Below the pieces are notes generated by a model. It saw only the letters and a program-made list of their open reading frames with translations, made no database searches and had not been told where the DNA came from. Positions 1,207 to 36,786 of a stretch of 45,284 nt of DNA are shown one piece after another; position 1 is the stretch's first letter; each line of letters begins with the position of its first letter. This DNA is from an uncultured OM43 clade bacterium (GTDB lineage: Bacteria > Pseudomonadota > Gammaproteobacteria > Burkholderiales > Methylophilaceae). The position numbers were made by a program, and so were the translations under genes. The stretch lies in assembly GCA_902558495.1 (NCBI GenBank), contig CACEEB010000007.1, positions 1 through 45,284 on the forward strand, written 5' to 3'.

Positions 1207-1283
1207 GGGCTCATAGCTCAGTTGGTTAGAGCAGAGGACTCATAATCCTTTGGTCCCAGGTTCGAGTCCTGGTGGGCCCACCA
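1207..1283 (+). tRNA. tRNA with CAU anticodon, probably tRNA-Ile2 (otherwise elongator tRNA-Met)
   Basis: The full cloverleaf folds by hand. The acceptor stem is GGGCTCA with TGGGCCC (one G-U pair). There is a D arm GCTC/GAGC, an anticodon stem GAGGA/TCCTT around loop CTCATAA (anticodon CAT at 1241-1243), a T arm CCAGG/CCTGG, and an encoded CCA end. CAU is used by initiator Met, elongator Met and lysidine-modified Ile2. The anticodon stem plus TGGTC variable loop resembles the E. coli ileX type more than metT, so Ile2 is favoured from memory of those tRNAs. It lies 5 bases after rpoD, at the left edge of the accessory block. Confidence 0.93.
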
Positions 1284-1778: not shown

Positions 1779-2300
1779 TCACGAAAAATTGTTAACAAGC
1801 ATCGTCAATAAATATATCCAGCCAAAAGTTAATATAATTTCCCATTTTTCTAATGTTTCTCCTAAAGAATGCTGATGTGGATATTCTCCGATATCTTTTT
1901 CCCATTCCCTAATTTTTATTTTTAAATCTGTATCAGCATAAGTTTGTGTCATTCTACCCGTAAGCCCAACTGCTTCTGCGATTGCTTTAAACTCCTTGCC
2001 ATGTGGCTTTACATTACCCTGATATAAATGATATTGAATGGAATGGCATACCTCATGAATCAGCACTTCAATAGCATTGAAACCATTATCTACAGAATTA
2101 CTTATTACGATCTGATATTTTTCTTCGGGGTAATAGTCATCTGATATTGTTTGTTGGCAATATCCATCCCAAGACTTTCTTATATCGGTACAAGTAATTC
2201 CTATATTTTCTGCTATTTCATCTATGGGAAATCCATTTTCATAAAATAGAGGGATAACTTTTTGAAAAGCCACCTTTAAGTATGCTTCTTTATTTTTCAA
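1779..2300 (-). CDS. SprT-like zinc metalloprotease
   Basis: A 173-residue protein with the SprT-type zincin signature. HEVCH at residues 82-86 supplies two zinc-binding histidines and the catalytic glutamate, and PHGKEF at about 99-104 supplies the usual third histidine region. SprT-like proteases (SPRTN family) act on proteins at DNA or in mobile-element settings. The C-terminal zinc ribbon found in some relatives is absent; the protein ends instead in a hydrophobic stretch (about 155-170), possibly a membrane tail. Its ATG overlaps the stop of the upstream gene by 4 bases, indicating translational coupling. The fold assignment is firm; the substrate is unknown. Confidence 0.8.
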   Translation of the reverse strand: MKNKEAYLKVAFQKVIPLFYENGFPIDEIAENIGITCTDIRKSWDGYCQQTISDDYYPEEKYQIVISNSVDNGFNAIEVLIHEVCHSIQYHLYQGNVKPHGKEFKAIAEAVGLTGRMTQTYADTDLKIKIREWEKDIGEYPHQHSLGETLEKWEIILTFGWIYLLTMLVNNFS

Positions 2301-2887
2301 TGATTAAAAGCAATTACTGTATTTTTCTTTGCTGTTTCCGCATTACATAATTCTTTAGCTTTTAATTTTGCAGCAATATAGCCATCCAAACTCCAGCTTT
2401 CAAATGCGACATCAAATAAGCTTTTATAAGGCTCTTCTATATCAATGATGATGGAATTTAGTTTTGATAAATATGCATCCATAACTTCTGCTTTACCAAA
2501 GTTAGATAAAGTAACTATCTGCAGACTTCCTAGACCATTAAGCCCTATAATTTCGGGAAAGATTTGAAATGATAATCCTTCCTCTTGGGGGAAGATCACT
2601 TTCAGCGGCATATTATTTTTCTTGAGTTTTTCGAGAATATTTATATTGCCGTAGGTTGAAGAGTAGGTTACATATAAATTATCATGCTCGCATGACCCTA
2701 GAGTTTTTAACCACCCGAACCTATGCCCATGGATAACTTCACCATAAGTACTATAGCGAATCATATCGCCTATTCTATCTACCTCCCAATCCTTATATCT
2801 ATTTATCTTTCTTTCTTCTGCATGACTCTGTGGTATGGCAAATAAGAAAAAGGAGTAAATTAACCAGAATATTTTGATAAATTTCAT
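2297..2887 (-). CDS. Secreted/periplasmic hypothetical protein
   Basis: The chosen start gives a clear Sec signal peptide: lysine near the N-terminus, a hydrophobic core of about 15 residues, then a likely SHA-EE cleavage site near residue 24. A longer in-frame start exists at 2929, but the signal peptide and an AGGGTG ribosome-binding site just upstream of 2887 favour this one. The mature part (about 170 residues) has no motif that I recognise; it contains two or three cysteines and mixed alpha/beta-type sequence. It overlaps the downstream SprT-like gene by 4 bases, suggesting a shared function or at least coupled expression. Confidence 0.7.
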   Translation of the reverse strand: MKFIKIFWLIYSFFLFAIPQSHAEERKINRYKDWEVDRIGDMIRYSTYGEVIHGHRFGWLKTLGSCEHDNLYVTYSSTYGNINILEKLKKNNMPLKVIFPQEEGLSFQIFPEIIGLNGLGSLQIVTLSNFGKAEVMDAYLSKLNSIIIDIEEPYKSLFDVAFESWSLDGYIAAKLKAKELCNAETAKKNTVIAFNH

Positions 2888-2894
2888 AGTCACC

Positions 2895-3050
2895 CTAAGT
2901 ATTTTTTCTGATATTAATTTGAGTAACATGAAATACTAATTTATTTGTTTCAATCCTACTTTCGATAATTGCCTTAGCCTCAGCCTCGCTTTCAGCCTGT
3001 AAGATCTCTGGCGAACATTCTTTAAATACTTTAATTGTAAATTCTTCCAT
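2895..3050 (-). CDS. Small hypothetical protein, 51 aa
   Basis: An open frame of 51 codons with a good ribosome-binding site (AAAGGGGG about 9 bases before the ATG), ending 7 bases before the next gene on the same strand. The protein begins MEEFTIKVFKECSPEILQAE: a short beta strand followed by a helix rich in Ala and Glu (SEAEAKAIIESRIE). This layout recalls small DpnD/PcfM-like proteins, but the likeness is weak. It is probably the first gene of the group running down to 1445. Confidence 0.6.
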   Translation of the reverse strand: MEEFTIKVFKECSPEILQAESEAEAKAIIESRIETNKLVFHVTQINIRKNT

Positions 3051-4384: not shown

Positions 4385-4603
4385 TTATAAATTTGTTTTC
4401 TCAAAATCTTCTTTTCGTTGAATTCTTAATTGTTTGATTTGATTTGATAATGCGTTATATTTCTCTCTTCTCGAATCATTTTCCCAACCGATTAATGTTG
4501 CATGCTCTAAGGTTTGCTCAGCTGCATATAAGAGTTGCCCTATAGTTAACGTATTCTTAAAAGAATCTAATTTATTCAAGAATTTTTTTGATTGATTTTG
4601 CAT
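4385..4603 (-). CDS. Small hypothetical protein, first gene behind GTAAC box C
   Basis: The ATG at 4603 is preceded by GGAGG with 5-6 base spacing, so it is preferred to the TTG four codons upstream, which lies inside the ribosome-binding site. The 72-residue product is soluble and helical, with charged ends (LRIQRKEDFEK). No family is recognised. It is the first gene of a minus-strand unit (4603 to 3146), and its start lies about 70 bases downstream of the GTAAC box at 4675. Confidence 0.65.
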   Translation of the reverse strand: MQNQSKKFLNKLDSFKNTLTIGQLLYAAEQTLEHATLIGWENDSRREKYNALSNQIKQLRIQRKEDFEKTNL

Positions 4604-4652: not shown

Positions 4653-4675
4653 GTTTTAAAAAAAGAAAAAGTTAC
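4653..4675 (-). promoter_or_regulatory. GTAAC box C (candidate sigma-dependent promoter or operator)
   Basis: On the minus strand the site reads GTAACTTTTT, then 8 bases, then AAAAC. The same pattern occurs at 8631 and 8831 on the plus strand. It lies 72 bases upstream of the ATG at 4603, in a non-coding gap. This is the most degenerate of the three copies: it lacks the ACTTT that follows GTAACTTTTT in A and B. Confidence 0.45.
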
Positions 4676-4804: not shown

Positions 4805-5299
4805 TTACTCAAGTATTAAGGTAACAGGGCCTTCAAATTCCTCATCTAGACCCAATAAATCTTTTAACTCAGCATCATTATTTGGCATTATGCCTTTAAA
4901 ATACATTTGTTTGGATTGGCTAAGTTGCGTAAATTCAAAATTTACGCCATTGTCCATGGAATAATTTACGATACTGTTAAATTTCTCCTTGGACGCAATT
5001 TCAATAATAGTTGTAGGTATATCGTAAACATAAGAATTTTCGTCTATACCTTTTACCCCAACCGACATAGGTAATGTAAATCTAGCAATTAAAAATCCAG
5101 TTACAAAAAGCGGCGCTCCAATTCCAAAAAATCTTTTGATATTATCGAAATTATTTTGTTTGGAGACCTTCGCCTCGATGGCCTCGTCAAGTTTTTGCTT
5201 AAATACAAAAGCATCATTACTTGGATGCTTTTCATCAAGTGAATTAACAAATTTTCCTAATTCATCTTTTAATAATTTAGAGGTATTTTTTTTCTTCAT
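4805..5299 (-). CDS. Single-pass membrane protein, candidate anti-sigma factor
   Basis: 164 residues in three parts: a soluble, charged N-terminal segment (1-55, mainly helical), one transmembrane helix (about 56-79), and an 85-residue C-terminal domain predicted to lie in the periplasm. This is the layout of membrane anti-sigma factors, in which the cytoplasmic end holds the sigma factor and the outer domain is cut on stress. No ZAS zinc motif (HxxxCxxC) is present and I see no sequence match to a named anti-sigma family, so the role is inferred from topology and position: it starts 9 bases after the sigma gene and two genes after a caspase-like peptidase. A structural partner of the peptidase is an alternative. 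Confidence 0.55.
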   Translation of the reverse strand: MKKKNTSKLLKDELGKFVNSLDEKHPSNDAFVFKQKLDEAIEAKVSKQNNFDNIKRFFGIGAPLFVTGFLIARFTLPMSVGVKGIDENSYVYDIPTTIIEIASKEKFNSIVNYSMDNGVNFEFTQLSQSKQMYFKGIMPNNDAELKDLLGLDEEFEGPVTLILE

Positions 5300-5308
5300 T
5301 TTATCGTT

Positions 5309-5956
5309 TTAACTCTCTATACATGGGTCTATTAATTCTCTTAATTCTTTTTCTACCTTGCTACATATTTTCTTAATATTACTTAATCCTAGGTTATTCA
5401 TATCAGCAAGATCTTGTTGCCTATAAGAGGTGAATTTAAAATCTATATAAATAGAAAATTCAAACGCATTTTTTTCACCATAGGATTTAATTTTATTTTG
5501 AATACAATCTGATTGGTTTAACGAACCTTGAACATTACTGATGGGCTCTTTGATAACTGTGTCGGTTATAGTACTCCCTCGCTCTGATATATCGAAAAGA
5601 TCTGTTCTGGAATTGCTATGTAATCTTGAATCATTTCTGATATTGTTAAAAATATGTTTTTTTAACCAACCCTTTATTACAAAATGTGATTTTGGAACAG
5701 AATGAAAAACAGGATTTTCCACTTCTGTGCCGTCTTTTAATACCTTTTTATCATCCATAAGTTTAATAAATGTTGTATGTAATATATCTTTAAGTTCTAA
5801 AATATCTGTATTTTTTGGATAAAATATTTGTATGTATCTTGTCAAACATTTCTCAAAATGTTCGTATAGTTTTCCTATTGCCTCACCCCTTTGAGGAACG
5901 TCTTTACTAATAAGTTTAGTATAAATTTCACTATAGTTTATTGGGTTATTTACCAT
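5309..5956 (-). CDS. ECF-like RNA polymerase sigma factor
   Basis: 215 residues with the two-domain plan of group 4 (ECF) sigma factors. A region-2-like part at about 30-110 contains LELKDILHTTFIKLMDD, matching the conserved DIxQxTFxxxW-type helix, and a region-4-like helix-turn-helix lies near the C-terminus (YRQQDLADMNNLGLSNIKKI, then a KVEKELRELI helix). The linker between them is unusually long. The gene is separated by one base from the caspase-like gene and by 9 bases from the membrane protein gene, so all three are almost certainly one operon. It could direct polymerase to the GTAAC boxes on either side; that is inference. Sequence similarity to ECF factors is recognisable but divergent. 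Confidence 0.75.
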   Translation of the reverse strand: MVNNPINYSEIYTKLISKDVPQRGEAIGKLYEHFEKCLTRYIQIFYPKNTDILELKDILHTTFIKLMDDKKVLKDGTEVENPVFHSVPKSHFVIKGWLKKHIFNNIRNDSRLHSNSRTDLFDISERGSTITDTVIKEPISNVQGSLNQSDCIQNKIKSYGEKNAFEFSIYIDFKFTSYRQQDLADMNNLGLSNIKKICSKVEKELRELIDPCIES

Positions 5957-5957
5957 C

Positions 5958-8513
5958 TTAGTTAGCTAAAATAATGTCATCTATCAGGTTAGAATAATTT
6001 GATGTTGTTTGATTATTATTGGTTAATCTTCTTACATCCGTTCTTACATCTCTTAATAATAGTACAATATCTTTTCTTTTATTAATAATTTTTGCTAGCG
6101 CTTGTGCATAAGGACTATAATCATCGCTCCCATCATATGCATATTTTCCAGCAGCGGTAGCAAATGATACTAAGGTATTATCTCCATAGCCATGGACATT
6201 GATAGGCGCCAATTCTCTAGAGTTAAAAGGGTTATTTCTGCAGGCATCTAGAAATATTATTTTCTTATTACCAGGAATATTTTGTCGTAGAAATTTATTT
6301 AAATCTATGGAAAGACTTATGGCATCCTCCGCTGTAATATTTTCGTCTATATCGGTGGGTATTAAATAATTTTGCCCACCAATCTGATAAGCATGACCAG
6401 AATAATAAACAACACTCAGTTCTGCATTTTTTGCTTCTTTAGAAAATGTTAAAAGTGCATCTTTAAAATTATTGAGGTTTAAATTAGAAAATGTATAGGT
6501 TTTAAAACTTTGCTCTTCTAATTTTTTAGCAATAAGTTCTACATCATTTAAAGGCGTATTAAGATTATTTTTATAATCATCATTACCTATAAGAAGCGCA
6601 TATCGCCCTTCTTTTTTGGTGTCCTCATAATATGAATCAATATTTTCATAAAAATCTTTGATACTGATTAATTTATCGTAAGAAATATTTCCATCTCTTA
6701 TTAAAGTATAGCGGGTTACCATATCATTTATTGCGTTATAGTCAGCAGTGGCTAGTGAACCATCGCCGTATGGATTATCGTTATAAATCTTCGCAAGATT
6801 ATCGTAGCAATCAATCACTTCATCGATAGAAAAAATATCCATATTCTCTGCTTGAAACATACATTTGGATTCAAGTAGAGATTGCCTTTGAGTGATTTCA
6901 TATTTTTTGTTAAATTCTAATACAAATTTTTGCCTATCATAGTCTTTTACCTCACCAGCTTTATTAAATGCAGGAGATGGCCCAAGAATTTTAGTAACAT
7001 GACCTTCAGTATATGCTTGATCATAAAGCTGATGTATCTTATCCATGACTTTTTCAAAGGTTTTTGATCCATAAAAATAGTTATAATTAATTATATTAGA
7101 GTAAAGGTGCACAGGGTTGACTGTATAGTTAGCACAATCCACCCAATCTTTTATGATATATTCTTCATCTTCTGCATAGTAATTAAGATCATCAATCTCT
7201 TTATTTTGAATAAGTTCCTCGCACTCATTAATCCACCCTTGAAAAGCGTCCTCTATATGAATTATAGCCAGCTTCTTATTTTTTATTTCTTTGGTATATG
7301 CCATATCAAAAATAACACCCAGCATATTTCTTGCCTCTAATATAGTTTCTTTGTTATCAATTATTAATGCAACACTCAGTGCTTTTTCAGCAAGAATCTG
7401 CGCGTAGCCTTCATTAACCTCACCATTTGTACCATCATAATATTCGTTAGCAGCAATCAGTAAAGCCTCTGCATTTGCTGGTGATATCTGCTCTTTAAAT
7501 AGCAGTAAATAATCTTTAGTTAGTAATTGCAGTTCTTTTTTATCAGAAATTATATTTTTATTTAGAAATTGATTTGTTAAATCAGGATTAGCTTTAATAA
7601 ATTGAAGAGCCTCAATACCCCCAAGTTCCTTTTCATTCTCTTTATTAATTTTTGCATTCGTATTAAAAAAAGTTATTAACTTTTTATTTTTGGTGGACTT
7701 TAAACCCAGTTGTACCCAGCTTCCATATAAATTACTGGGTAAACCTACCATGTTGTAATGAAGAAGAATAAATAATATATTTTTTTCATCTATCGTTTCA
7801 TTAGCAAAAAGTAGATGATCAATGAAGTTAAATGGTTTTGGATTTTTTTTGTTTGCCTCCCAAAAACCTTCTGTCACATAGCTTGCCAGGTCATATGTAT
7901 CACGTTCTAGTAATATAGACTCATGATAAGTATCATGTTTTTTTATGTATTGTATAGTGAGTTCTTTAAGATTATTTAAATCAGTTAAAAATTTAGCATT
8001 GTTCATAGTCTTTATAAAATCTAAATCTGTTTTAAACCAATAATTTCTATCATTTAATCTAATTTGGAACAAAGGATTATTCAGATCCACTTTATAACCA
8101 ATAACCATATTTTTAATTTTTAAAGATTGTGCGTTTTTTTCGAAAAACTCAATCCAACTTAAAAGTATTTCTTTTGGAAAAAAATATTTTGCATCTGTAT
8201 ATTCCATAAAATATACGATAAAAGAATCATCAATTTTGGTTTTTTTAATTGCCTCTTGAATGGATTCACTTCTTTTTTCAAATTCCCACTCATCGTAACT
8301 AATAAAATTTTCAATATACTTTTCATATTCATCATCAGTTAAGAAACCAACCTCCTCATCTTCCATTTTATTTTGCTCAGGATCATTACTATAGAGAGGT
8401 TTTGTTTTAGCGTGATTCACTTCCTCTTTAGTATCTACTGTTAAATAAAGAAAAAAACTGCAGAGAATTGTGATGAATAAAAGGAAGATTATTAAGAGAT
8501 TACTTTTTGACAT
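5958..8513 (-). CDS. Membrane-anchored caspase-like (C14, orthocaspase) peptidase
   Basis: 851 residues. A transmembrane segment at about 6-25 is followed by a long helical region (roughly 40-640) with stretches resembling TPR/Sel1 repeats around 365-435, and a C-terminal caspase-hemoglobinase-fold domain from about 645. The catalytic dyad is clear: His707 in YYSGHAY and Cys758 in FLDACRNNPF, preceded by RYALLIGNDDY, the usual first strand of prokaryotic caspase domains. Cleavage after Arg or Lys would be expected for an orthocaspase. With one N-terminal anchor and a lysine just before it, the bulk is probably periplasmic; no lipobox is seen. It is the first gene of the operon with the sigma factor and the membrane protein. 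Its ATG has AAAAGG upstream. Confidence 0.88.
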   Translation of the reverse strand: MSKSNLLIIFLLFITILCSFFLYLTVDTKEEVNHAKTKPLYSNDPEQNKMEDEEVGFLTDDEYEKYIENFISYDEWEFEKRSESIQEAIKKTKIDDSFIVYFMEYTDAKYFFPKEILLSWIEFFEKNAQSLKIKNMVIGYKVDLNNPLFQIRLNDRNYWFKTDLDFIKTMNNAKFLTDLNNLKELTIQYIKKHDTYHESILLERDTYDLASYVTEGFWEANKKNPKPFNFIDHLLFANETIDEKNILFILLHYNMVGLPSNLYGSWVQLGLKSTKNKKLITFFNTNAKINKENEKELGGIEALQFIKANPDLTNQFLNKNIISDKKELQLLTKDYLLLFKEQISPANAEALLIAANEYYDGTNGEVNEGYAQILAEKALSVALIIDNKETILEARNMLGVIFDMAYTKEIKNKKLAIIHIEDAFQGWINECEELIQNKEIDDLNYYAEDEEYIIKDWVDCANYTVNPVHLYSNIINYNYFYGSKTFEKVMDKIHQLYDQAYTEGHVTKILGPSPAFNKAGEVKDYDRQKFVLEFNKKYEITQRQSLLESKCMFQAENMDIFSIDEVIDCYDNLAKIYNDNPYGDGSLATADYNAINDMVTRYTLIRDGNISYDKLISIKDFYENIDSYYEDTKKEGRYALLIGNDDYKNNLNTPLNDVELIAKKLEEQSFKTYTFSNLNLNNFKDALLTFSKEAKNAELSVVYYSGHAYQIGGQNYLIPTDIDENITAEDAISLSIDLNKFLRQNIPGNKKIIFLDACRNNPFNSRELAPINVHGYGDNTLVSFATAAGKYAYDGSDDYSPYAQALAKIINKRKDIVLLLRDVRTDVRRLTNNNQTTSNYSNLIDDIILAN

Positions 8514-8630: not shown

Positions 8631-8653
8631 GTAACTTTTTACTTTAATAAAAC
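8631..8653 (+). promoter_or_regulatory. GTAAC box A
   Basis: GTAACTTTTTACTTTA is identical over 16 bases to box B at 8831; AAAAC follows 13 bases after GTAAC. It is 69 bases upstream of the ATG at 8700, in the divergent gap between the caspase operon and the plus-strand genes. GTAA-CTTT-TTAC also makes a small dyad, so an operator is an alternative to a promoter. Confidence 0.5.
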
Positions 8654-8699: not shown

Positions 8700-8825
8700 A
8701 TGCAACTAACTTCGCAAATAAATACACATTCAAGTGAGCATTATCTTTCTATGGATGAAATATTTGAAATACTTTATGGCTTTAATTTTTCCTCATGCCA
8801 AAAATATTTTGAGGAAGAGAATTAA
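8700..8825 (+). CDS. Small hypothetical protein, 41 aa
   Basis: A 41-codon frame with a near-ideal ribosome-binding site (AAGGAG, 8 bases before the ATG). The protein is acidic, with the segment HYLSMDEIFEILYGFNF in the middle and an EEEN end. There is no signal or membrane segment. It lies between GTAAC boxes A and B: box A is upstream of it and box B starts five bases after its stop. No family is recognised. Confidence 0.6.
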   Translation: MQLTSQINTHSSEHYLSMDEIFEILYGFNFSSCQKYFEEEN

Positions 8826-8830
8826 AAAAA

Positions 8831-8854
8831 GTAACTTTTTACTTTATTCAAAAC
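8831..8854 (+). promoter_or_regulatory. GTAAC box B
   Basis: GTAACTTTTTACTTTA then TTC and AAAAC. It is 88 bases upstream of the ATG at 8919, the first gene of a run ending at 11981. Preceded by A, it contains the dyad AGTAA-CTTT-TTACT. A TATAAG sequence at 8857-8862 could be a -10 element, which would make the box an upstream activator site instead. Confidence 0.5.
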
Positions 8855-8918: not shown

Positions 8919-9101
8919 ATGGGAAAATTTTTAGTTACAGAAATTTTAATTAATGGTGAGGGGAAAGAAATAAAGTTGGAATGGGATTATCACGATCGCT
9001 TTCCAACAGAAAAAGAAAAACAAGCAACCAGAGATTATTTAAAGAATGAGAATATTAAATTCGATATGAAGGGGCAACATGTTCACAAAACACGCACATA
9101 A
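8919..9101 (+). CDS. Small hypothetical protein, 60 aa
   Basis: The start at 8919 is chosen over the ATG at 8868 because it has AAAGGA upstream and leaves room for a promoter at box B. The product (60 aa) begins MGKFLVTEILINGEGKEIKL and reads like a short beta sheet followed by a charged helix. No family is recognised. The 3' end overlaps the next gene by 23 bases, so the two are coupled. Confidence 0.55.
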   Translation: MGKFLVTEILINGEGKEIKLEWDYHDRFPTEKEKQATRDYLKNENIKFDMKGQHVHKTRT

Positions 9102-9393
9102 AAGAGCACAGCAAAGAGTAATCCCCCCTTTAATTGAAGATTTACTCCTTCTTTATGGAGATCATAAGTATGAACCTGGAAATAAAGAAATTTATTTCTT
9201 TTCTAAAAAATCAAAGAAGCGTATGGCGCGTGATTTAGGTGCCCCAATTGTGGGTTGTTTATCTAAATTTTTAAATGTCGCCATGGTTAAAGCTTCAAAT
9301 GATGATGTGGTAACTGTTTTTAAGAGAACTAAAAAAATTAAAAATAAAATAAGGGGAAGAAAATGCCAAAGTCATATAGCAGAGAGTATTTAG
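9079..9393 (+). CDS. DUF4258/RelE-superfamily-like small protein
   Basis: 104 basic residues. The N-terminal HAHKRAQQRVIPPLIEDLL and the late strand DDVVTVFKRTKK follow the pattern of DUF4258-type proteins (H-x2-R-x3-R-x-I at the front, a V-x-T-V strand near the end), which are distant members of the RelE/ParE RNase-like group. It is followed with a 31-base overlap by a helix-turn-helix gene, the order expected of a toxin and an antitoxin/repressor. The family match is from memory of the pattern, so toxin activity is a guess. AAGGGG precedes the ATG by 4-5 bases. Confidence 0.5.
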   Translation: MFTKHAHKRAQQRVIPPLIEDLLLLYGDHKYEPGNKEIYFFSKKSKKRMARDLGAPIVGCLSKFLNVAMVKASNDDVVTVFKRTKKIKNKIRGRKCQSHIAESI

Positions 9394-9703: not shown

Positions 9704-10327
9704 ATGAAACTATTTAACAAAATTTTTAAAAGTAATGCTAAGAATGACATGAATAAAAGTGAAGAACTTATGCTTACTGATGAGCAAGAAATTAATAATT
9801 CTCAGGTGAGCCAAATGAATAATGAAAATATAGATAATTTTCCATTACCTCGCTATGCGCAGTTAACTCCATTGGAGGCACCTGCCATGCAAAAGAGTAT
9901 TTTAAGCCAACCAAAACCCGTTTTTGTTGCATTGATTAATAATGAAGAATTAAAAGAATTTTTTAATAAGAAATACTTTAATCGAGGCCGCCACAATGGC
10001 GCTAATTTTGGTAGTACTGCAATCATGCGGATAGGAAAAAATGCCATTGTTTCTGAATTTAAACAATGCTTGTATCAAATGGATGGTAAAAGAAGATCTA
10101 AAATTACTGAATTAAAAAATCACGCAGCATCCACCAAAGACGCCTTCAAAGAATTTGATGGCGCTTTGAAAGATAAAATCACTTTTCTGGAAGATGAATG
10201 CCAAATTATTCAGCATCAACTTACCAATTGTGAGGAATACCAAGGCTGGGTAGAAGGACCACTTAGAACCTATGAAAGTGGATTTTTACAAGGCCTTGCC
10301 TACGCAACACGCTATCGTTTTAATTAA
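9704..10327 (+). CDS. Hypothetical soluble protein
   Basis: 207 residues, no signal peptide or membrane helix. The first 55 residues are low-complexity, rich in Asn, Glu and Met. The middle and end (about 75-207) are a folded, mostly helical region containing RGRHNGANFGSTAIMRIGKN and a long charged helix (ALKDKITFLEDECQIIQHQL). TTAGGAG lies 8 bases before the ATG. It is probably a partner of the following membrane protein, whose start is 20 bases after its stop. No family is recognised. Confidence 0.6.
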   Translation: MKLFNKIFKSNAKNDMNKSEELMLTDEQEINNSQVSQMNNENIDNFPLPRYAQLTPLEAPAMQKSILSQPKPVFVALINNEELKEFFNKKYFNRGRHNGANFGSTAIMRIGKNAIVSEFKQCLYQMDGKRRSKITELKNHAASTKDAFKEFDGALKDKITFLEDECQIIQHQLTNCEEYQGWVEGPLRTYESGFLQGLAYATRYRFN

Positions 10328-10346
10328 AATTTTTAGGAGAAAGATT

Positions 10347-11531
10347 ATGAGTATATTTAATAAATATCTTTTCACGATGGCAGGTGAAGATAGCAATAAA
10401 ATAAATGATTACCACATTGATACTATTAGACGGACTTCAAACTTTGGTTTATTAATTCATATCCCAATGATTATTTGGTTTTTTATTGGTTACTATTTGA
10501 GTTTTTACCTTTTTGATTCATCCATATTATTTTCTCTGATAGTAGGCATGATATCTGCGGCAATCATTTATGCAATAGATCGCAGTATTATAAATTCTGC
10601 AAAGACTAAACCGTTGACTATAGCACGTTGTATTTTAGGAGTTATTTTTGCAATAGCTGGAGCTTTCCTGGTCGATGTAATGGTATTTGAAAAAGATATT
10701 AATCAATATTTATCAAATCAGGATAAAGAATCTACCCGACTTATATATTCACAAAAGATTACTGATAAAAAAATTGATGTGAATGAAAAGCGCTTAACTT
10801 GGTTAGCAGCGGTGAACAATGCTCATACCGAAGCAGATGGTTCTGGGGGATCACGTAAGGCGAATAAAAAAGAAGTCCAATCACTCATGCAACAACGTTC
10901 AAGTATCGTTAAAGAGTTTGAAAAAAAACGTAAGGGTGTGGTAAAAAACTTTAATCAAGAAATGAAGCGATGTGGTTTTTTATGCTCAGAACAACCCATT
11001 ATTCAAAAAAGAGATAGATCTTTAAATGACTTAGCCATGCAAGAAAAGAAAGCTATCGCATTAATTCATGCCAAAATTGAAGCAATCCAATCTAAATCTA
11101 CCAAAAAATCACCTCGTGGAAGAGGAGAGGTTTGGGAAATTAAGAATATGCATGCCGAAAAAGCAAGACAAGATTATTTGAAAGCTAGTAAAGCATTAGC
11201 TAGCATGGAAGATGAGCTTAATACAAAAATTAAAAGTTCATTGTCTGATACGTCAAATGAAAATGGCCTGATAGCTAAAGTAAAAGCCCTACATATAGTG
11301 GCTTTTGAACAAACAGAATCAATTATTTTTTATATAGTTTTCTTCTTGGTTTTTTTAGCGTTTGAATTAGTCCTGGTTTTGACAAAAGTATTTTCACCTT
11401 TAACTATTGATGATAAAAGGATTGAGCATTTAGCTAGGATGCAAGAAAAGGAAATGCAAGTTGATGAAGAACAATTAATTCAATATCAAAAAATGCTAGC
11501 CGAACAAGATGGCGTGTCTTTTGAGGTATAA
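10347..11531 (+). CDS. DUF4407-like membrane protein with long periplasmic or cytoplasmic coiled coil
   Basis: 394 residues from the ATG with TTAGGAGA upstream; an upstream in-frame start at 10272 would overlap the preceding gene by 56 bases and has no such site. Membrane helices lie at about 34-54, 59-76 and 94-113, and a final one at about 345-369. IYAIDRSIINS after the second helix is typical of DUF4407. Between helices three and four is a 230-residue Lys/Glu-rich coiled coil. DUF4407 proteins are of unknown function and recur in accessory and stress clusters. It is the largest product of the unit behind GTAAC box B. Confidence 0.75.
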   Translation: MSIFNKYLFTMAGEDSNKINDYHIDTIRRTSNFGLLIHIPMIIWFFIGYYLSFYLFDSSILFSLIVGMISAAIIYAIDRSIINSAKTKPLTIARCILGVIFAIAGAFLVDVMVFEKDINQYLSNQDKESTRLIYSQKITDKKIDVNEKRLTWLAAVNNAHTEADGSGGSRKANKKEVQSLMQQRSSIVKEFEKKRKGVVKNFNQEMKRCGFLCSEQPIIQKRDRSLNDLAMQEKKAIALIHAKIEAIQSKSTKKSPRGRGEVWEIKNMHAEKARQDYLKASKALASMEDELNTKIKSSLSDTSNENGLIAKVKALHIVAFEQTESIIFYIVFFLVFLAFELVLVLTKVFSPLTIDDKRIEHLARMQEKEMQVDEEQLIQYQKMLAEQDGVSFEV

Positions 11532-11564: not shown

Positions 11565-11981
11565 ATGACTGCACAATTTCAAGAAGAAATATTTATTGAT
11601 GGAGAGTCTCATGGCTTATCAACTGAGCCATTGCAAATGTATCTTGATTCAATGCAAAATCCTCCTGAATTTGATTGGGGCTCAACTGCCTGCTGGAGAG
11701 GTTATATAGGTAGTTGGGCTATCAAAGGTAATAGTCTATATCTTACGGATATTCAATTGCAGTGTGTAAAGGAAGATAATTTTCATTGGCGAATGATGTT
11801 TAATGGAAGGCAAGGTGATATTAAAGCAGAATGGTTTTCTGGTGTTTTAAGAGTACCTCAAGGTGAATTACTAGAATATGTTCATGGAGGATATGGGAGT
11901 CAATACGAAAGAGATTTATTTATTGATATTGAAAAAGGTAATATTATCGATAGAAGGATTGTGCATAATGGAACTGATTAG
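11565..11981 (+). CDS. Conserved hypothetical protein, beta-rich
   Basis: 138 residues, acidic and rich in Trp, Tyr and Gly, with alternating beta-strand pattern: TACWRGYIGSWAIKGNSLYL, then AEWFSGVLRVPQGELLEYVHGGYGS. I have seen this arrangement in a widespread uncharacterised family (the W-R-G-Y...Y-V-H-x-G-Y-G-S pattern), which is often next to toxin or immunity-like genes, but I cannot name it. It is 33 bases after the DUF4407-like gene and is probably the last gene of that unit. AAGGATT precedes the ATG. Confidence 0.6.
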   Translation: MTAQFQEEIFIDGESHGLSTEPLQMYLDSMQNPPEFDWGSTACWRGYIGSWAIKGNSLYLTDIQLQCVKEDNFHWRMMFNGRQGDIKAEWFSGVLRVPQGELLEYVHGGYGSQYERDLFIDIEKGNIIDRRIVHNGTD

Positions 11982-12365: not shown

Positions 12366-13115
12366 ATGAAAATAATTACATGGAATTGTAATCAAGCACT
12401 TAGAAAAAAATTTCCTTTATTAGAAAAATTTAATGCCGACATTATTGTATGTCAGGAATCAGAAAAATTAGCTAACAACTTCTTCGAAAACTATCATTAC
12501 CAATGGATAGGTAAAAATTCAAATAAAGGTATAGGGATCTTAACTAAAAAATATCCTTGTTCAATAAGTAAAAATTTTAACGAAAAATTTATTTACTATT
12601 TGCCACTAAATTTTCAGAATTTTAATATATTGAATGTATGGACACATACTAAAGCTGACAAACTTGGAGCTGATGCTAATGGAAATATTATTGATGCTCT
12701 TGATTATTATAACGATTGGATAACAACAAAGAAGAAAGCTATCATTATTGGAGATTTTAATAACTCTATTGTATTCGATGAAAAGTATAATTGGGCGCCG
12801 AAATTTGTTGATATAAAGGCATATTTATATAAATTAGGATTTAAGAGTTCATACCATTCATTTTTTAATGAAGAATTCGGTAAAGAAAAAACACCAACTC
12901 TTTTCCATCAAAAAAATTTAACTAAACCTTTTCATATTGATTATGCGTTTATTAAAGGTTTTTGGGTGAAAAGTGTTGAAATTGGTAAGCCAGATGAATG
13001 GCTTGTTGAAAGTGACCATATGCCAATCATAATTGAAATATACTCTGTTATGCTCATAATTAAATGGCTATTTATCATTTTATTAGCCTTAGCTGTATTA
13101 TTAATGTTGATATGA
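12366..13115 (+). CDS. Endonuclease/exonuclease/phosphatase (EEP) family protein with C-terminal membrane helix
   Basis: 249 residues with the EEP (DNase I/exonuclease III-like) motifs in order: TWNCN at 5-9, the metal-binding Glu in VCQE (31), IGDFNNS in the middle, HIDYAF, and SDHMPIIIE near the end. This fold cuts DNA, RNA or phosphoesters using Mg2+. It differs from ordinary members by ending in a strongly hydrophobic helix (about residues 225-249), which would tether the nuclease to the membrane with the enzyme domain inside. The stop overlaps the start of the next gene (ATGA), so the two are coupled. The specific substrate cannot be told. Confidence 0.8.
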   Translation: MKIITWNCNQALRKKFPLLEKFNADIIVCQESEKLANNFFENYHYQWIGKNSNKGIGILTKKYPCSISKNFNEKFIYYLPLNFQNFNILNVWTHTKADKLGADANGNIIDALDYYNDWITTKKKAIIIGDFNNSIVFDEKYNWAPKFVDIKAYLYKLGFKSSYHSFFNEEFGKEKTPTLFHQKNLTKPFHIDYAFIKGFWVKSVEIGKPDEWLVESDHMPIIIEIYSVMLIIKWLFIILLALAVLLMLI

Positions 13116-14065
13116 AAAAATCATTATCTAAATTAAAAAAAATTAACCTCAGAGATATTTGGCCGCATGAAGCATTGGATTTTACAAAATGGCTCGCTGA
13201 GGAAGAAAACCTTGATTTGCTGAGCAATGAGATTGGAATAAGCTTAAAACTTATAGGTACTGAAGTTTCTATAGGTAATTTCAATCTTGATATATTGGCT
13301 GAAGAAGAAAATACAGGTCGTAAAATTATTATTGAAAACCAACTAGAACCAACTAATCATGATCATCTTGGAAAAATTATTACTTACGCTGCAGGAAAAG
13401 ATGCAAAAGTTATTCTATGGATAGTAAGAGACGCAAGAGAGGAGCATAGGCAAGCAATTGAATGGCTTAATAATCATACAGATAATGAAATAGGTTTTTT
13501 TCTTATTAAAATAGAGGCCTTTCAAATTGATAATTCTCCTCCTGCTCCGAAATTTGAATTAATTTGCAAGCCTAATGAGTGGGCTAAAATAACAAAAACA
13601 AATCTTTCTAATAGCCCCGTTAGTAGAACAAAATTACAGCAATTAGATTTTTGGGAAAGTTTCAGAGATTATGTAAGGAGCAAAGATTCCGCTATAAATT
13701 TACGAACTCCGAGTCCTAAACATTGGTACGATGTAAGTATAGGAACATCCGCGGCACATATAGCACTAACAGTAAATACGAAGAATAATCTAATGGCCTG
13801 TGAATTATATATTAATAAAGATAAAGACTTTTATAAGTACCTACAAGAAAGAATAAAAGCAATTGAAAGTGAATTAAATGAATCTCCTAGATTAGTTGAT
13901 GCCAAAATTGCCTCTGCAATAAGGTTGCAAAAAAAAACAAATGGTATTTTTGCTACAGATGAATTAAAAAATAATTTTAAGTGGCTATATGAGAAAACGA
14001 TTTTATTTAAAAAAGTTTTTCCAAAATATATTAATGAATTTAAATCATATAAGAGTAAAAATTGA
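13112..14065 (+). CDS. DUF4268-type PD-(D/E)XK nuclease-like protein
   Basis: 317 residues. The first 100 residues match the restriction-endonuclease-like fold seen in DUF4268 proteins: Asp60 in FNLDILAEE, then IIIENQLEP with Glu75-x-Gln77 taking the E-x-K position, then HDHLGKIITYAAG. The C-terminal half (WYDVSIGTSAAHIALTVNTK...) matches the DUF4268 portion. The start at 13112 gives an ATGA overlap with the EEP gene; a longer frame from 13064 would run far into that gene. Such proteins occur as solitary, restriction-like genes. Direct nuclease activity is likely but not proven, since the Lys of the motif is Gln. Confidence 0.75.
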   Translation: MKKSLSKLKKINLRDIWPHEALDFTKWLAEEENLDLLSNEIGISLKLIGTEVSIGNFNLDILAEEENTGRKIIIENQLEPTNHDHLGKIITYAAGKDAKVILWIVRDAREEHRQAIEWLNNHTDNEIGFFLIKIEAFQIDNSPPAPKFELICKPNEWAKITKTNLSNSPVSRTKLQQLDFWESFRDYVRSKDSAINLRTPSPKHWYDVSIGTSAAHIALTVNTKNNLMACELYINKDKDFYKYLQERIKAIESELNESPRLVDAKIASAIRLQKKTNGIFATDELKNNFKWLYEKTILFKKVFPKYINEFKSYKSKN

Positions 14066-15439: not shown

Positions 15440-16249
15440 ATGATCAGCCTAAAAAGAAACACTAAATTAGAACTAGTTGAAGCTTTAGGTAAACGCACTC
15501 GTGCATCATCTATCTATAACCCAGGACAAACAGAAGACTTTAAAATTAGTCGTGGTAAGTTTAGTGACTTCCTTACCTGCCAGCGTTGTTTTTATCTTGA
15601 TCGTGTTAAAGGATTAGCTGAGCCTCGGACTCCAGGATGGACATTAAACGAGACGACCGACCTTCTTTTAAAAAAAGAGTTTGATGAATGCCGTAAACAT
15701 CAAAAACCTCATCGCTTATTTGCTCAATATGGATTGGACCATATCGTACCTTTTGAACATCCTGCTATGGATGATTGGCGTAATTCAATGCATAAAGGTT
15801 TGATGGCGCGCTATAAAGATTCCAATATTATTCTATCGGGTGGTGTGGATGACATTTGGTTTGATACCAAGAAAGAATGTTTGATTGTCGTGGACTATAA
15901 GTCCCAAGCTAATAGTAAAACCGTAGAGCCCTTGTCGTATTTAGCCTCTCCTTATCATGAAGGCTATAAAATTCAAATGGACTTTTATAATTATTTACTT
16001 GATCTCATGGAATTTCCTATCGGTGATACCTCCTATTTTCTGGTAGTGAATGCTAATAGGGGGGCTAGTGGCTTTCATGGAGTGATGGAATTTACAGAAA
16101 CCATAGTTCCTTATCAGCACGATATCTCATGGCTAGATGAACAGGTTCAAAATATGATTGATTGTATGAATTTAAATAAACTTCCAGAGAGTAATATAAG
16201 TTGTGAAAACTGTGCTTATGCTCGTCAAAGAAACACAGAAGAGAATTAG
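15440..16249 (+). CDS. PD-(D/E)XK nuclease, Cas4/AddB-like with four-cysteine cluster
   Basis: 269 residues. The nuclease core shows Asp in SGGVDDIWFD and the D-Y-K of CLIVVDYKSQ (the PD-(D/E)XK motif), then YHEGYKIQMDFYNYLL, the usual Q-x-x-x-Y helix of RecB/Cas4-type enzymes. Cys47 and Cys50 (LTCQRCFYL) at the front and Cys255 and Cys258 (SCENCAYA) at the end are placed like the iron-sulphur cysteines of Cas4 and AddB. No CRISPR array or other cas gene is in the window, so it is a solitary Cas4-like protein. It lies between the HEPN gene and GP88-like gene. Confidence 0.78.
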   Translation: MISLKRNTKLELVEALGKRTRASSIYNPGQTEDFKISRGKFSDFLTCQRCFYLDRVKGLAEPRTPGWTLNETTDLLLKKEFDECRKHQKPHRLFAQYGLDHIVPFEHPAMDDWRNSMHKGLMARYKDSNIILSGGVDDIWFDTKKECLIVVDYKSQANSKTVEPLSYLASPYHEGYKIQMDFYNYLLDLMEFPIGDTSYFLVVNANRGASGFHGVMEFTETIVPYQHDISWLDEQVQNMIDCMNLNKLPESNISCENCAYARQRNTEEN

Positions 16250-16257
16250 GTAGGACT

Positions 16258-17016
16258 TTATTTGTAATTCACCGCATCACCATTAAAGCATCTTCTGCAC
16301 TTATTACACATGCCTTCAATATTTTCATTAGTATTTAATGGGCATATAGTTTCGTCTACCTCAGAAATAAAATCTTTGTTATATTTATCGGCAAAAACAA
16401 CCGATATAAAAGAAATAGGATCATAGGTTTCATTTTTGTCACATTGATATGAATAAAATAAGTTATTTTTTTTTGTTGTTAGAAGCTTTTCTACTTTTTC
16501 TTTTCTATTCATACTTTTTTCATCAAGAGAAAAATGAATGAATACATTGGGAAGTAGCAGGTCAGCTAATTTAGCTGCATGTTCAGGTATTCTTGTTACA
16601 ACCCAAATAGGCAAGCTTGGTTCTTTAGTGGCTAATTCATGGATCGCATCAACTGCCTCTTTAAATAAGTCACCAACACCATTCCATCGTAAGAAAAAAT
16701 TATTATCTTTGGCGCTGTATTTGGTTATTTCTTCGATAATTTTTTGGGCAAAATCTTTTGGAGAATCTTTACATAATAATGCATTCTTTACTTGTTTATT
16801 AAGTGATGTAGGCCAAGTTATTGGCCCTGTCAATCCATAGCAGGTTTTAATACAAACCTTCGATGGTTGACAGGTTGTTCCTATAGGAAAATTTACGCTT
16901 AAACCTGTTACCTTATTATTGGATAAAATAGTATGATTAATATTAGAGGTTAAAAATATATCGGTTTTATTTGTTTTTTTTTGTAGATTAGTGAATTTTA
17001 TATTTGAAATTCGCAT
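16258..17016 (-). CDS. GP88-like protein (phage/mobile-element family)
   Basis: 252 residues. The N-terminal half has VTGLSVNFPIGTTCQPSKVC followed by IKTCYGLTGP, matching the GP88 family described from phages, with three cysteines closely spaced. A second Cys group lies at the C-terminus (MCNKCRRCF, plus CPLN upstream). The middle contains FLRWNGVGDLF and PIWVVTRIPEHA. Two cysteine groups suggest metal or iron-sulphur binding; members have no established activity that I know of. It is convergent with the Cas4-like gene (9 bases between stops) and divergent from the methylase genes. Confidence 0.7.
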   Translation of the reverse strand: MRISNIKFTNLQKKTNKTDIFLTSNINHTILSNNKVTGLSVNFPIGTTCQPSKVCIKTCYGLTGPITWPTSLNKQVKNALLCKDSPKDFAQKIIEEITKYSAKDNNFFLRWNGVGDLFKEAVDAIHELATKEPSLPIWVVTRIPEHAAKLADLLLPNVFIHFSLDEKSMNRKEKVEKLLTTKKNNLFYSYQCDKNETYDPISFISVVFADKYNKDFISEVDETICPLNTNENIEGMCNKCRRCFNGDAVNYK

Positions 17017-17172: not shown

Positions 17173-17829
17173 ATGGATACCAAACAAATAAAAACAAAGA
17201 AAAGAGTCACTAATCACGGGGAAGTTTATACGGGTCCGAGAGAGGTAGTGGCAATGCTGGATCTAGTTGATCGGGAGACAAAAAGAATTGAATCAAAATT
17301 TCTTGAGCCAGCATGTGGGAATGGGAATTTCCTAATAGAAATTCTAAAGAGAAAAATAGAGGTTATACAGAAACGTTACTCTTCATCTCAAATAGATTAT
17401 GAACGGTATTTATTTTTAGCCACAACCTCAATATATGGAATTGATATTCAACAAGACAATGTAGATGAATGCCGAAAGCGATTATTAACGTTCATAGCGG
17501 AAAGCTATAGAAAATTATTCAAAAAAACTTATAAAGCACAATTTGTTAAATCAATATCATTAGTACTATCAAAAAATATTCTTTGTGGTGATGCTCTCTC
17601 ACTTAAAGCATATGACAATGATTTAATCGGTACACCTATAATATTTTCAGACTGGTCATTGATTTCTGGCAACATGGTTAAAAGAAAAAATTTTATATTT
17701 TCTGATCTTGTTGAACGTGCCAGTGATCGTGAAATGCCTTTATTCTCTGATCTTGATGATGAAGCATTTATACCTGAACCCGTTGAAGAATTTGCACCAA
17801 TAGATTTTATGAATCTTGAAAATGGCTGA
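17173..17829 (+). CDS. Short N6-adenine methylase-like protein (SAM-binding domain)
   Basis: 218 residues. FLEPACGNGNFLIEIL at about 43-58 is a textbook SAM-binding motif I of adenine DNA methylases, and YGIDIQQDNVDECRKRL matches motif II and its helix. The catalytic motif IV (N/D-P-P-Y/F) is not present; at that position is TPIIFSDWSLISGNMVKRK. It is therefore either half of a two-protein enzyme with the next gene or a non-catalytic partner. The next gene overlaps it by 8 bases. The acidic C-terminal tail (SDLDDEAFIPEPVEEF) may mediate contact. Assignment to the methylase fold is secure; activity is open. Confidence 0.78.
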   Translation: MDTKQIKTKKRVTNHGEVYTGPREVVAMLDLVDRETKRIESKFLEPACGNGNFLIEILKRKIEVIQKRYSSSQIDYERYLFLATTSIYGIDIQQDNVDECRKRLLTFIAESYRKLFKKTYKAQFVKSISLVLSKNILCGDALSLKAYDNDLIGTPIIFSDWSLISGNMVKRKNFIFSDLVERASDREMPLFSDLDDEAFIPEPVEEFAPIDFMNLENG

Positions 17830-19387
17830 ACTAATTAATTATAATCCAGACGTTTTATCTTGCCTTGCTAATTTGAGTAATGATGAAGTGTTTACCCCTC
17901 CTGAAATTGCAAATAAAATAATTGATCTTCTTCCACAGAATCTTTTTGAAAATAAAAACACAACATTTTTAGATCCAGGATGTAAGTCAGGTATTTTTTT
18001 GAGGGAAATTGGTAGAAGATTGATGAAGGGACTTGAAAAAAAAATTCCTAATATACAAGAGCGTATTGATCATATTTATACTAAACAAATTTATGCTCTC
18101 CCTATAACAGAACTCACATCTTTATTATCAAGAAGAAGTATTTACTGTTCAACAAAAGCTAATGGAAAGTATTCAATAACGCAAGGCTTTGATAATGAAC
18201 AAGGAAATATTATATTTGAAAAAAAGAATCACACATGGATAAACGGAAGTTGTAGTTTCTGTGGCGCTAATGAAAATATGAATTCTCGAGATGAATCACT
18301 AGAGTCACATGCATATCAATTTATCCATACAAATAAACCAGAGGAAATCTTTAATATGAAATTTGATGTAATTATTGGGAATCCACCTTTTCAATTGAAT
18401 ATCGGAAATACTAGCGGAAATAGTTCAAAAGCTAAGGCTATTTACCATAAATTTATTGATCAGGCCATCGCACTGAATCCTCGATATATTTCAATGATTA
18501 CTCCGAGTAGGTGGATGACAAAAAGTGCTGATGGTGTTCCTGACCAATGGGTAGAAAAATTAATTAAAAGTAATAAAATTAAAATTTTACATGATTATAT
18601 AAATTCAAAGGATATGTTCCCAGGGGTAATGATTGAAGGCGGAGTTAATTTTTTTCTTTGGGAAAATGATTATAATGGAAAATGTGAATATTCGTTTCAT
18701 GAATCATCGAGTAAAAAAACTATACCTTCAAGCATTTATTTAGATAAGAGAAATATAGGGATTGTAGTCAGGGATAATAACGCACAAGAAATATTGGATA
18801 AAATTGAAAAAAAAGAAGGTAATTATTACTGTGATGCACAAAAGAATTTTTCTGGCTTGGTTAGCCCCAAAGATTTTTTTACAAATAAAACTTATTTGAC
18901 TTCAAGTTGGAAAAATTATAAAGATAAAAAGACAGGTGAAAACCAAATTAAGTATTATTTAAATAAAGCAATGCATAAGAGAGATTATGGTTGGATAAAA
19001 AAATCTGATGTACCAAAAAATATTCTTACGTCGCAAAGCCATAAAGTCTTAATACCTGCCGCTCATGGCGGACATCAAAAAATTATAGGAAATCCTTTTT
19101 ATTCTGAGCCAGGCAGCGTTTGCTCACAAACATATTTGGTGATTGGATATGATTTTAAAAAACATAATTTTAATAAAAACGAATGTCAAAATATTATTTC
19201 TTATATTTCAACTAAATTTTTTAGATACTTAGTAAGCATAAAGAAAAAAACACAAAATGGACCAAGAGGAGTTTACCAATTTGTCCCATTACAAAATTTT
19301 AAGGAATCATGGACTGATGAGAAACTTTATAAAAAATATAATATTTCTGATGATGAAATTAACCTTATTAATTTAATGATTAAGTAA
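17822..19387 (+). CDS. Eco57I-type adenine-N6 DNA methyltransferase
   Basis: 521 residues from the ATG at 17822. Motif I is FLDPGCKSGIFL (about 49-60) and motif IV is DVIIGNPPFQL near residue 183-193, so both the SAM site and the catalytic site are present. An insertion with GSCSFCG and another Cys (RSIYC) between them may bind zinc. The C-terminal part contains ISMITPSRWMTK and later target-recognition-like sequence. It overlaps the preceding methylase-like gene by 8 bases and ends 13 bases before the helicase, forming one operon. It likely protects host DNA in a restriction-type system. Confidence 0.85.
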   Translation: MAELINYNPDVLSCLANLSNDEVFTPPEIANKIIDLLPQNLFENKNTTFLDPGCKSGIFLREIGRRLMKGLEKKIPNIQERIDHIYTKQIYALPITELTSLLSRRSIYCSTKANGKYSITQGFDNEQGNIIFEKKNHTWINGSCSFCGANENMNSRDESLESHAYQFIHTNKPEEIFNMKFDVIIGNPPFQLNIGNTSGNSSKAKAIYHKFIDQAIALNPRYISMITPSRWMTKSADGVPDQWVEKLIKSNKIKILHDYINSKDMFPGVMIEGGVNFFLWENDYNGKCEYSFHESSSKKTIPSSIYLDKRNIGIVVRDNNAQEILDKIEKKEGNYYCDAQKNFSGLVSPKDFFTNKTYLTSSWKNYKDKKTGENQIKYYLNKAMHKRDYGWIKKSDVPKNILTSQSHKVLIPAAHGGHQKIIGNPFYSEPGSVCSQTYLVIGYDFKKHNFNKNECQNIISYISTKFFRYLVSIKKKTQNGPRGVYQFVPLQNFKESWTDEKLYKKYNISDDEINLINLMIK

Positions 19388-19400
19388 ATGGAAGTTAATG

Positions 19401-36667: not shown

Positions 36668-36786
36668 AAGCTTCAGATCTCTCTTTTAATTAATATTTAA
36701 CATAAGGTTTATTGTAAAGCAAAAAATTACCTAATTCTTGATAAGTAAAATAAATCAATAAATGTAACTAAATTGTTACGAAAGTG

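Follow-up and report, generated by a model that had tools for sequence, protein, structure and literature searches.

An operon for an exported caspase-like peptidase, an ECF sigma factor and a candidate membrane anti-sigma factor in an OM43 clade bacterium

Contig CACEEB010000007.1 of an uncultured OM43 clade bacterium (Methylophilaceae; assembly GCA_902558495.1), whose 45,284 nucleotides are called here the window, carries on its minus strand an operon (8513-4805 in the open reading frame (ORF) listing) in which genes for a caspase-like C14 peptidase, an extracytoplasmic function (ECF)-like sigma factor and a one-helix membrane protein follow one another. A single base (5957) separates the caspase and sigma genes and nine bases (5300-5308) separate the sigma gene from the third gene, the same coordinates and spacing that a first-pass annotation of this DNA had given. 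The sigma and third genes moreover share a reading frame, a single TAA and three codons standing between them (window 5299-5311); in a related pair of the same genus, of the Sel1 type described below (L109; comparison stretches are cited by such numbers), an in-frame ATG follows the TAA immediately. The triplet is real, conserved and functionally coherent. As for its mechanism, we infer a membrane-proximal switch, which we hold about as likely to be right as wrong, in which caspase cleavage of the one-helix protein would free the ECF-like sigma factor.

Residues 637-845 of the caspase match PF00656 (E=3e-30; 106 bits against a cut-off of 21.4), and His707 and Cys758 are invariant in an alignment of eight rows (A1), so that the C14 peptidase with a complete dyad announced by the first-pass annotation is borne out. 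Asp657 is also invariant in A1, at what we take to be the site of the Arg-binding Asp of MALT1. Hydropathy (19-residue window) reveals a single segment above 1.2, near residue 6 (2.92), corresponding to an N-terminal membrane segment at about residues 6-25. Of ten caspases encoded near an ECF gene, that of the window among them, nine have a hydrophobic segment in their first 60 residues, the exception being a 330-residue caspase-like protein of L069, which is signal-like by eye only; such segments would be expected of a protease located in the periplasm, where the outer part of the third protein would lie. A profile of the window caspase and two Polynucleobacter caspases (A7) matches Sel1-repeat structures (E=4e-24) and MALT1 (E=1e-12). 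We think that the Sel1 signal derives mainly from the Polynucleobacter rows, and the repeats are assigned to these homologues and not to the window caspase. The EACC1-caspase model reaches 36 bits with the window protein, far below its cut-off of 140. When used as a query, the window caspase found matches in 6 of 61 genomes and in 26 of 369 genomes of the class (its own included), those outside its own genome covering the query from residue 630 onward only, that is, the caspase domain. No match was found in phages, and in plasmids the coverage was at most 28% among the best 40 of 267 records; the neighbours were inspected in three plasmid records, two of which have no annotated sigma gene in the stretches inspected while the third bears no annotation.

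The window sigma factor has no Pfam sigma match, and its NCBIfam matches, SigZ (E=3.9e-5) and TIGR02937 (E=0.008), are both far below cut-off. Against a profile of seven related sigmas it scores 17.6 bits, the best of 2000 shuffles of its own sequence reaching 10.5. Furthermore, an 11-row family alignment, of which it forms one row, matches solved ECF factors with E values down to 1e-16, and the comparison by hhalign of the caspase-linked sigmas (window, L113 and L195; A9) with a Sel1-linked group (A10) gives a probability of 99.2. Judged by these comparisons, the protein is a member of the ECF family; the identification made in the first-pass annotation stands by virtue of the family alignment, but the protein alone, with no Pfam hit, is a weaker case than was implied. 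Its only match among 300 genomes is in its own, and plasmids gave none. Viral contigs yielded no confirmed relative of the sigma factor, the third protein, the caspase or the L113 sigma; the last has plasmid matches in 35 records, and neither of the two inspected has an annotated caspase neighbour. Kinship of the window protein to CASP-sigma was also considered and is not supported, the type III-E model NF041236 being absent from the window sigma hits at E<=1; the same model is a weak, non-top match for the sigmas of L050 and L109.

In the third protein the only segment with a hydropathy above 1.2 lies near residue 64 (1.66), and by eye the transmembrane (TM) helix spans about residues 57-78, leaving about 56 residues presumably inside and about 85 outside. 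This agrees with the one-helix protein with a short cytoplasmic end and an outer part of some 85 residues first annotated here, its orientation being the probable one. The gene lies immediately 3' of the ECF gene, and on this position and on its topology, with a single TM segment and a short N-terminus that is probably inner, we propose that it encodes an anti-sigma factor. Membership of a known anti-sigma family was considered and dropped, with no match in Pfam or NCBIfam and none by profile comparison. Searched with its profile, 399 genomes of the order gave one credible match, in its own genome; two further matches are marginal (E of 0.013 and 0.016), and another hit in its own genome looks like chance. 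Just outside the membrane, the window protein and both Polynucleobacter third proteins have in common a basic residue and, directly after it, a Gly that is invariant. Non-metazoan C14 peptidases are described, in the available part of one report, as cleaving after Arg or Lys (PMC5756287), and Lys83-Gly84 may be the point at which the caspase cuts.

A profile search of genome contigs with the caspase-domain alignment matched at least 592 stretches, of which 591 were confirmed and the best 80 used. Among the matches listed, the best caspase domain is that of Polynucleobacter sp. MWH-HuK1 (44% identity), whose locus has genes for an integrase-like protein, two caspases (one exported, the other anchored and encoded divergently), an ECF factor, a one-TM protein and a protein with the motif KHAxxRAQQR (the RQ protein). 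The same gene set is found in a second genome, grouped with Polynucleobacter by the search tool (G780), where it adjoins type I restriction-like genes (named by eye). Over its residues 226-851 the window caspase aligns with the Polynucleobacter caspase of L196, with 30% identity (E=4e-59); the homology thus extends far outside the caspase domain and takes in the long middle region. The pairwise score of the window and Polynucleobacter sigmas is low (12 bits), and the third protein and its homologue L113:8932-9492 score 22 bits pairwise; by profile the score is 14.5 bits, as against no more than 8.5 in 3000 shuffles. Homologues of all three proteins of the operon thus co-occur in two genomes of another genus, and the lack of conservation that the first-pass annotation had named as a refutation of its proposal is not what the search shows. 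The RQ proteins share 33 bits pairwise, with 39% identity between those of the window and L196; the RQ protein has no Pfam match above cut-off and none in padloc or phrogs. Since the third protein is matched in 2 of 151 Polynucleobacter genomes searched, the query's own included, the gene set is sporadic.

Beyond these islands, an ECF gene lies within 3 kb of a caspase hit at six of 110 caspase loci (L050, L053, L059, L063, L069 and L113), a count that is no class-wide frequency, the best 80 loci being mostly alphaproteobacterial by title, and that was obtained with sigma models including the sigmas of L050, L063, L069 and L113 themselves; L050, L053, L059, L063 and L069 were also found with an earlier model lacking those sigmas. 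At L050, L063 and L069 a one-TM protein adjoins the sigma factor, with a caspase or caspase-like gene beside it. The gene order of L050 is that of the window, and at L069 it is the gene after the one-TM protein that encodes the 330-residue protein, caspase-like by eye. A search of 250 genomes with the L069 one-TM protein gave, apart from the query, one partial match, and plasmids gave none.

These comparisons bear on a different role for the third protein, whose outer domain might inhibit the caspase, with the sigma factor controlling the expression of the pair and no anti-sigma factor present. The missing anti-sigma family match would suit such an inhibitor, and so would conservation, as the inner part is no better conserved than the outer (9 of 56 inner and 16 of 86 outer residues invariant in three rows, by eye). 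However, the one-TM gene stands directly 3' of the sigma gene in all six loci compared (window, L113, L195, L050, L063 and L069), even where the caspase belongs to a separate unit, and the L063 counterpart weakly matches an anti-sigma model (E=1.5e-5; 25 bits against a cut-off of 100). We therefore consider a caspase inhibitor very improbable and keep to an anti-sigma factor cleaved by the caspase.

In the DegS-RseA-RpoE pathway, a periplasmic protease starts the cleavage of a membrane anti-sigma factor. The N-terminal segments of the caspases, the single TM segment of the third protein, the Lys/Arg preference, Lys83-Gly84 and Asp657 together suggest a route of this kind in which the caspase would act first. 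The inner end of the one-helix protein would keep the ECF-like sigma factor at the membrane. The caspase would be exported but remain attached to the inner membrane, where its long middle region would sense an envelope event, possibly phage attack, and activate the caspase domain. The latter would then cut the outer part of the one-helix protein near the membrane, possibly on the C-terminal side of Lys83. As in the DegS-RseA pathway, the release would be completed by housekeeping proteases, intramembrane and Clp, and the freed sigma factor would turn on adjacent genes. The topology in the cell, the holding of sigma, the cleavage, the sensing, the target genes and a role in defence are all our reading of sequences. 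The sigma switch put forward in the first-pass annotation has gained from the conservation of the triplet, the ECF family assignment and the N-terminal segments of the caspases, and has lost from the third protein, which matches no anti-sigma family.

Candidate promoter boxes accompany the adjacent genes. The sequence GTAACTTTTT has exactly three copies in the window, which cluster around the operon within 4.2 kb, each 69-88 bases upstream of the ATG of a flanking unit (Table 1). A fourth, weaker match is found at window 36709-36730, about 40-60 bases upstream of a minus-strand gene starting at 36667, and all four genome-wide matches of the box pattern lie on this contig. Each of the two Polynucleobacter islands has the two-part box TGACTTTT-N11-TCGTCTT twice, before the sigma gene and before the RQ gene, and of these four copies only the RQ copy of G699 deviates, by one mismatch. 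In G780 the sigma and RQ copies are the only exact matches in 1.9 Mb, and in G699 the sigma copy is the sole exact match genome-wide and the RQ copy one of two with one mismatch, the pattern having been derived from these sites first and counted afterwards. No 9-mer is repeated in the upstream regions of three or more genes of these islands. The second, membrane-anchored caspase gene, divergent from the sigma gene (L113:7113-8240 and L195:8657-9784), shares with it in both islands an upstream region that has the box inside.

Such an arrangement would suit a caspase that is the output of the system, where the membrane protein senses, other proteases free the sigma factor and sigma raises the caspase, leading to envelope damage or cell death. 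The caspase is the first gene of the sigma operon, the second Polynucleobacter caspase diverges from the sigma gene over their common region, and the generic padloc caspase model matches the window protein (1.7e-7). On the other hand, the window caspase has no exact box immediately upstream on its own strand, and the long region before the caspase domain, Sel1-repeat-like in the homologues (A7), suits sensing or docking better than a bare effector. An output role appears unlikely to us, if not strikingly so, and we continue with the caspase as the protease that would release sigma.

Several results weigh against this release by the caspase. The third protein is without any family match at E<=1 in Pfam and NCBIfam, anti-sigma families included; hhalign found no significant relation between it and the TM partners of the Sel1-type ECFs, and it has no profile similarity to the TM partners of L050, L063 and L069. 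The window sigma is highly divergent and, taken alone, gives weak scores, ECF neighbours are rare among the caspase loci checked, and the Polynucleobacter caspases lie outside the sigma operon. As regards the boxes, a Markov control gives 0.35 copies of GTAACTTTTT per simulated window and three or more copies in 3 of 300 simulated windows. A 15-base pattern with at most one mismatch has four matches genome-wide against six for the reversed control, and because the matches are no commoner than in this control the GTAACTTTTT boxes are at most suggestive. With up to two mismatches, the Polynucleobacter pattern and its control give 10 and 10 matches in G699 and 8 and 13 in G780. Finally, the Polynucleobacter sigma box ends one base before the ATG, which requires a leaderless transcript or a later start.

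The operon lies in a region that begins after tRNA-Met and is variable among the genomes of the genus, followed by a conserved stretch that in L104-L106 and in the window holds DNA-glycosylase-, SDR-, HU-, UmuD- and UmuC-like genes (named by eye). It occupies the two most AT-rich bins of the window, with GC contents of 0.289 and 0.291, the remaining bins ranging from 0.299 to 0.391. A duplicated 3' end of the tRNA-Met of at least 16 bases, as an island boundary, was not found within the window, the tRNA was the sole match of an RNA-family search, and a scan for sigma-70 consensus sites and terminators gave fewer sites than in shuffles. The triplet might have come together through island shuffling, its members having no common function. 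The variable region, with its several defence-type genes, would fit this, as would the caspase, which among 31 genomes of the genus, some of them incomplete, found a homologue in its own genome alone; homologous partners are nevertheless together in another genus, and we give little credit to a chance assembly compared with a working sigma switch.

Table 1. Features of the operon and its neighbourhood (positions in the window)
Feature	Coordinates	Strand	Remarks
C14 caspase gene	5958..8513	-	851 aa; N-terminal membrane segment, long middle region, C-terminal caspase domain
Catalytic His707 codon	6393..6395	-	invariant in alignment A1 (8 rows)
Catalytic Cys758 codon	6240..6242	-	invariant in alignment A1 (8 rows)
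ECF-like sigma factor gene	5309..5956	-	215 aa
One-helix membrane protein gene	4805..5299	-	164 aa; proposed anti-sigma factor
Lys83-Gly84	5048..5053	-	just outside the membrane; aligns with Arg-Gly of both Polynucleobacter proteins (3-row alignment)
GTAACTTTTT copy 1	8631..8652	+	69 bases upstream of ATG 8700
GTAACTTTTT copy 2	8831..8852	+	88 bases upstream of ATG 8919; in-frame ATG 8868 nearer; ahead of RQ gene
GTAACTTTTT copy 3	4654..4675	-	72 bases upstream of ATG 4603; in-frame TTG 4615 nearer
41-aa ORF	8700..8825	+	behind box copy 1; ribosome-site-like AGGAGA
Small ORF, possible target	4385..4603	-	behind box copy 3
RQ protein (KHAxxRAQQR) gene	9079..9393	+	homologue adjoins Polynucleobacter sigma pair; predicted target
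Protein common to window and both Polynucleobacter islands	11565..11981	+	about 35% identity
tRNA-Met	1207..1283	+	directly 3' of rpoD; variable region begins here

Among the other genes of the region, that at window 13064-14065 strongly matches the candidate defence family PDC-S11 (padloc, E=9e-117) and also DUF4268, and a restriction-like cluster of three genes (17173-21890) encodes two methylase-like proteins, with an Eco57I-type methylase among the matches, and a T5orf172/ResIII helicase-like protein. A DUF4407 membrane protein (10272-11531; 9e-30) is encoded between the RQ gene and the defence-type genes, and a GP88-family protein at 16258-17016 (6e-19). The window also contains an XoxF-like gene, and from this gene and rpoD, both read by eye, we place the host in the Methylophilaceae. 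Other operons of the genus consist of an ECF gene, a one-TM protein with Sel1 and an exported Sel1-repeat protein (L103:1450-2756, L104:1608-4250, L105:5054-7645, L108:6224-8898 and L109:6766-9469). Those of L103-L105 lie, like the window caspase operon, in the region that follows rpoD and tRNA-Met, and those of L108 and L109 are on other stretches; the membrane protein of L104 has no plasmid match. A PD-(D/E)XK protein of the window (15440-16249) shares 78% identity with a protein of L103 and 68% with one of L108, both of them stretches with Sel1-type sigma operons, on which the protein of window 2297-2929 has homologues as well (36% identity in L108, 33% in L103); the gene of the latter is possibly an accessory gene shared by sigma stretches.

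To our knowledge, few bacterial caspases have a concrete substrate and output. If the proposed switch is true, a bacterial caspase would gain both, and protease-released sigma switches with caspase-type enzymes would exist outside CRISPR. The analysis also offers specific and inexpensive handles for testing, namely a candidate site of cleavage, a candidate promoter box and, in Polynucleobacter sp. MWH-HuK1, a homologous system.

The first-pass annotation had called this a distinct system, which is too strong in view of related arrangements. Predicted operons of a metacaspase and a sigma-70 gene were reported in 2012 from Myxococcus, Anaeromyxobacter, Haliangium, Sorangium, Ralstonia and Fibrobacter (PMC3501461); they resemble the window in joining a caspase homologue and a sigma gene in one operon, and their description, in the available part of that paper, mentions neither a membrane anti-sigma partner nor a Sel1 region or a mobile island. 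Likewise, ECF54 sigma genes occur near CHAT genes (PMC8999054) and EACC2-caspase systems include an ECF sigma factor (PMC8195603), so that there too an ECF gene adjoins CHAT or caspase genes, with partner domains that are described, in the accessible text of these sources, as other than those of the window. Among the literature matches listed, from a mostly open-access literature, no title or abstract opening deals with a caspase cleaving a membrane anti-sigma factor. The association of a protease or caspase with a sigma factor is therefore of a known kind, and what is new is the combination, on a mobile island, of an exported caspase and an anti-sigma-like partner in the membrane.

The same-genus Sel1-type operons of L103-L105, L108 and L109 are like that of the window in their homologous sigma family, their one-TM second protein and an exported third protein with repeats, and three of them also in their place after rpoD and tRNA-Met. 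They differ in a second protein that ends in a Sel1 repeat and has no detectable relation to the window third protein, and in that no caspase gene was noticed in those loci. With respect to DegS-RseA-RpoE, the protease of the window is a caspase and not a serine protease, and its anti-sigma factor is a candidate. The experimental precedent dates from 2022, when Csx29 was found to cleave Csx30, the inhibitor of CASP-sigma, and a release of sigma by cleavage, as we envisage it here, was proposed in the available part of that report (PMC10028731). In contrast to that system, the window protease has a C14 caspase domain and not a CHAT domain, the protease and the third protein both bear membrane segments, and the third protein matches no family. 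No Cas7-11 or other CRISPR genes were noticed by eye among the window ORFs and a repeat scan of 1200-23000 gave no CRISPR array, the rest of the genome not having been searched for either. Tentatively, as a possibility that we rate rather below probable, the exported caspase could be the site-1 protease of a membrane anti-sigma factor in a CRISPR-free, mobile and envelope-sensing defence switch that drives genes of its island (the RQ gene and the small neighbours), and hence an independently arisen periplasmic counterpart of Csx29-Csx30-sigma.

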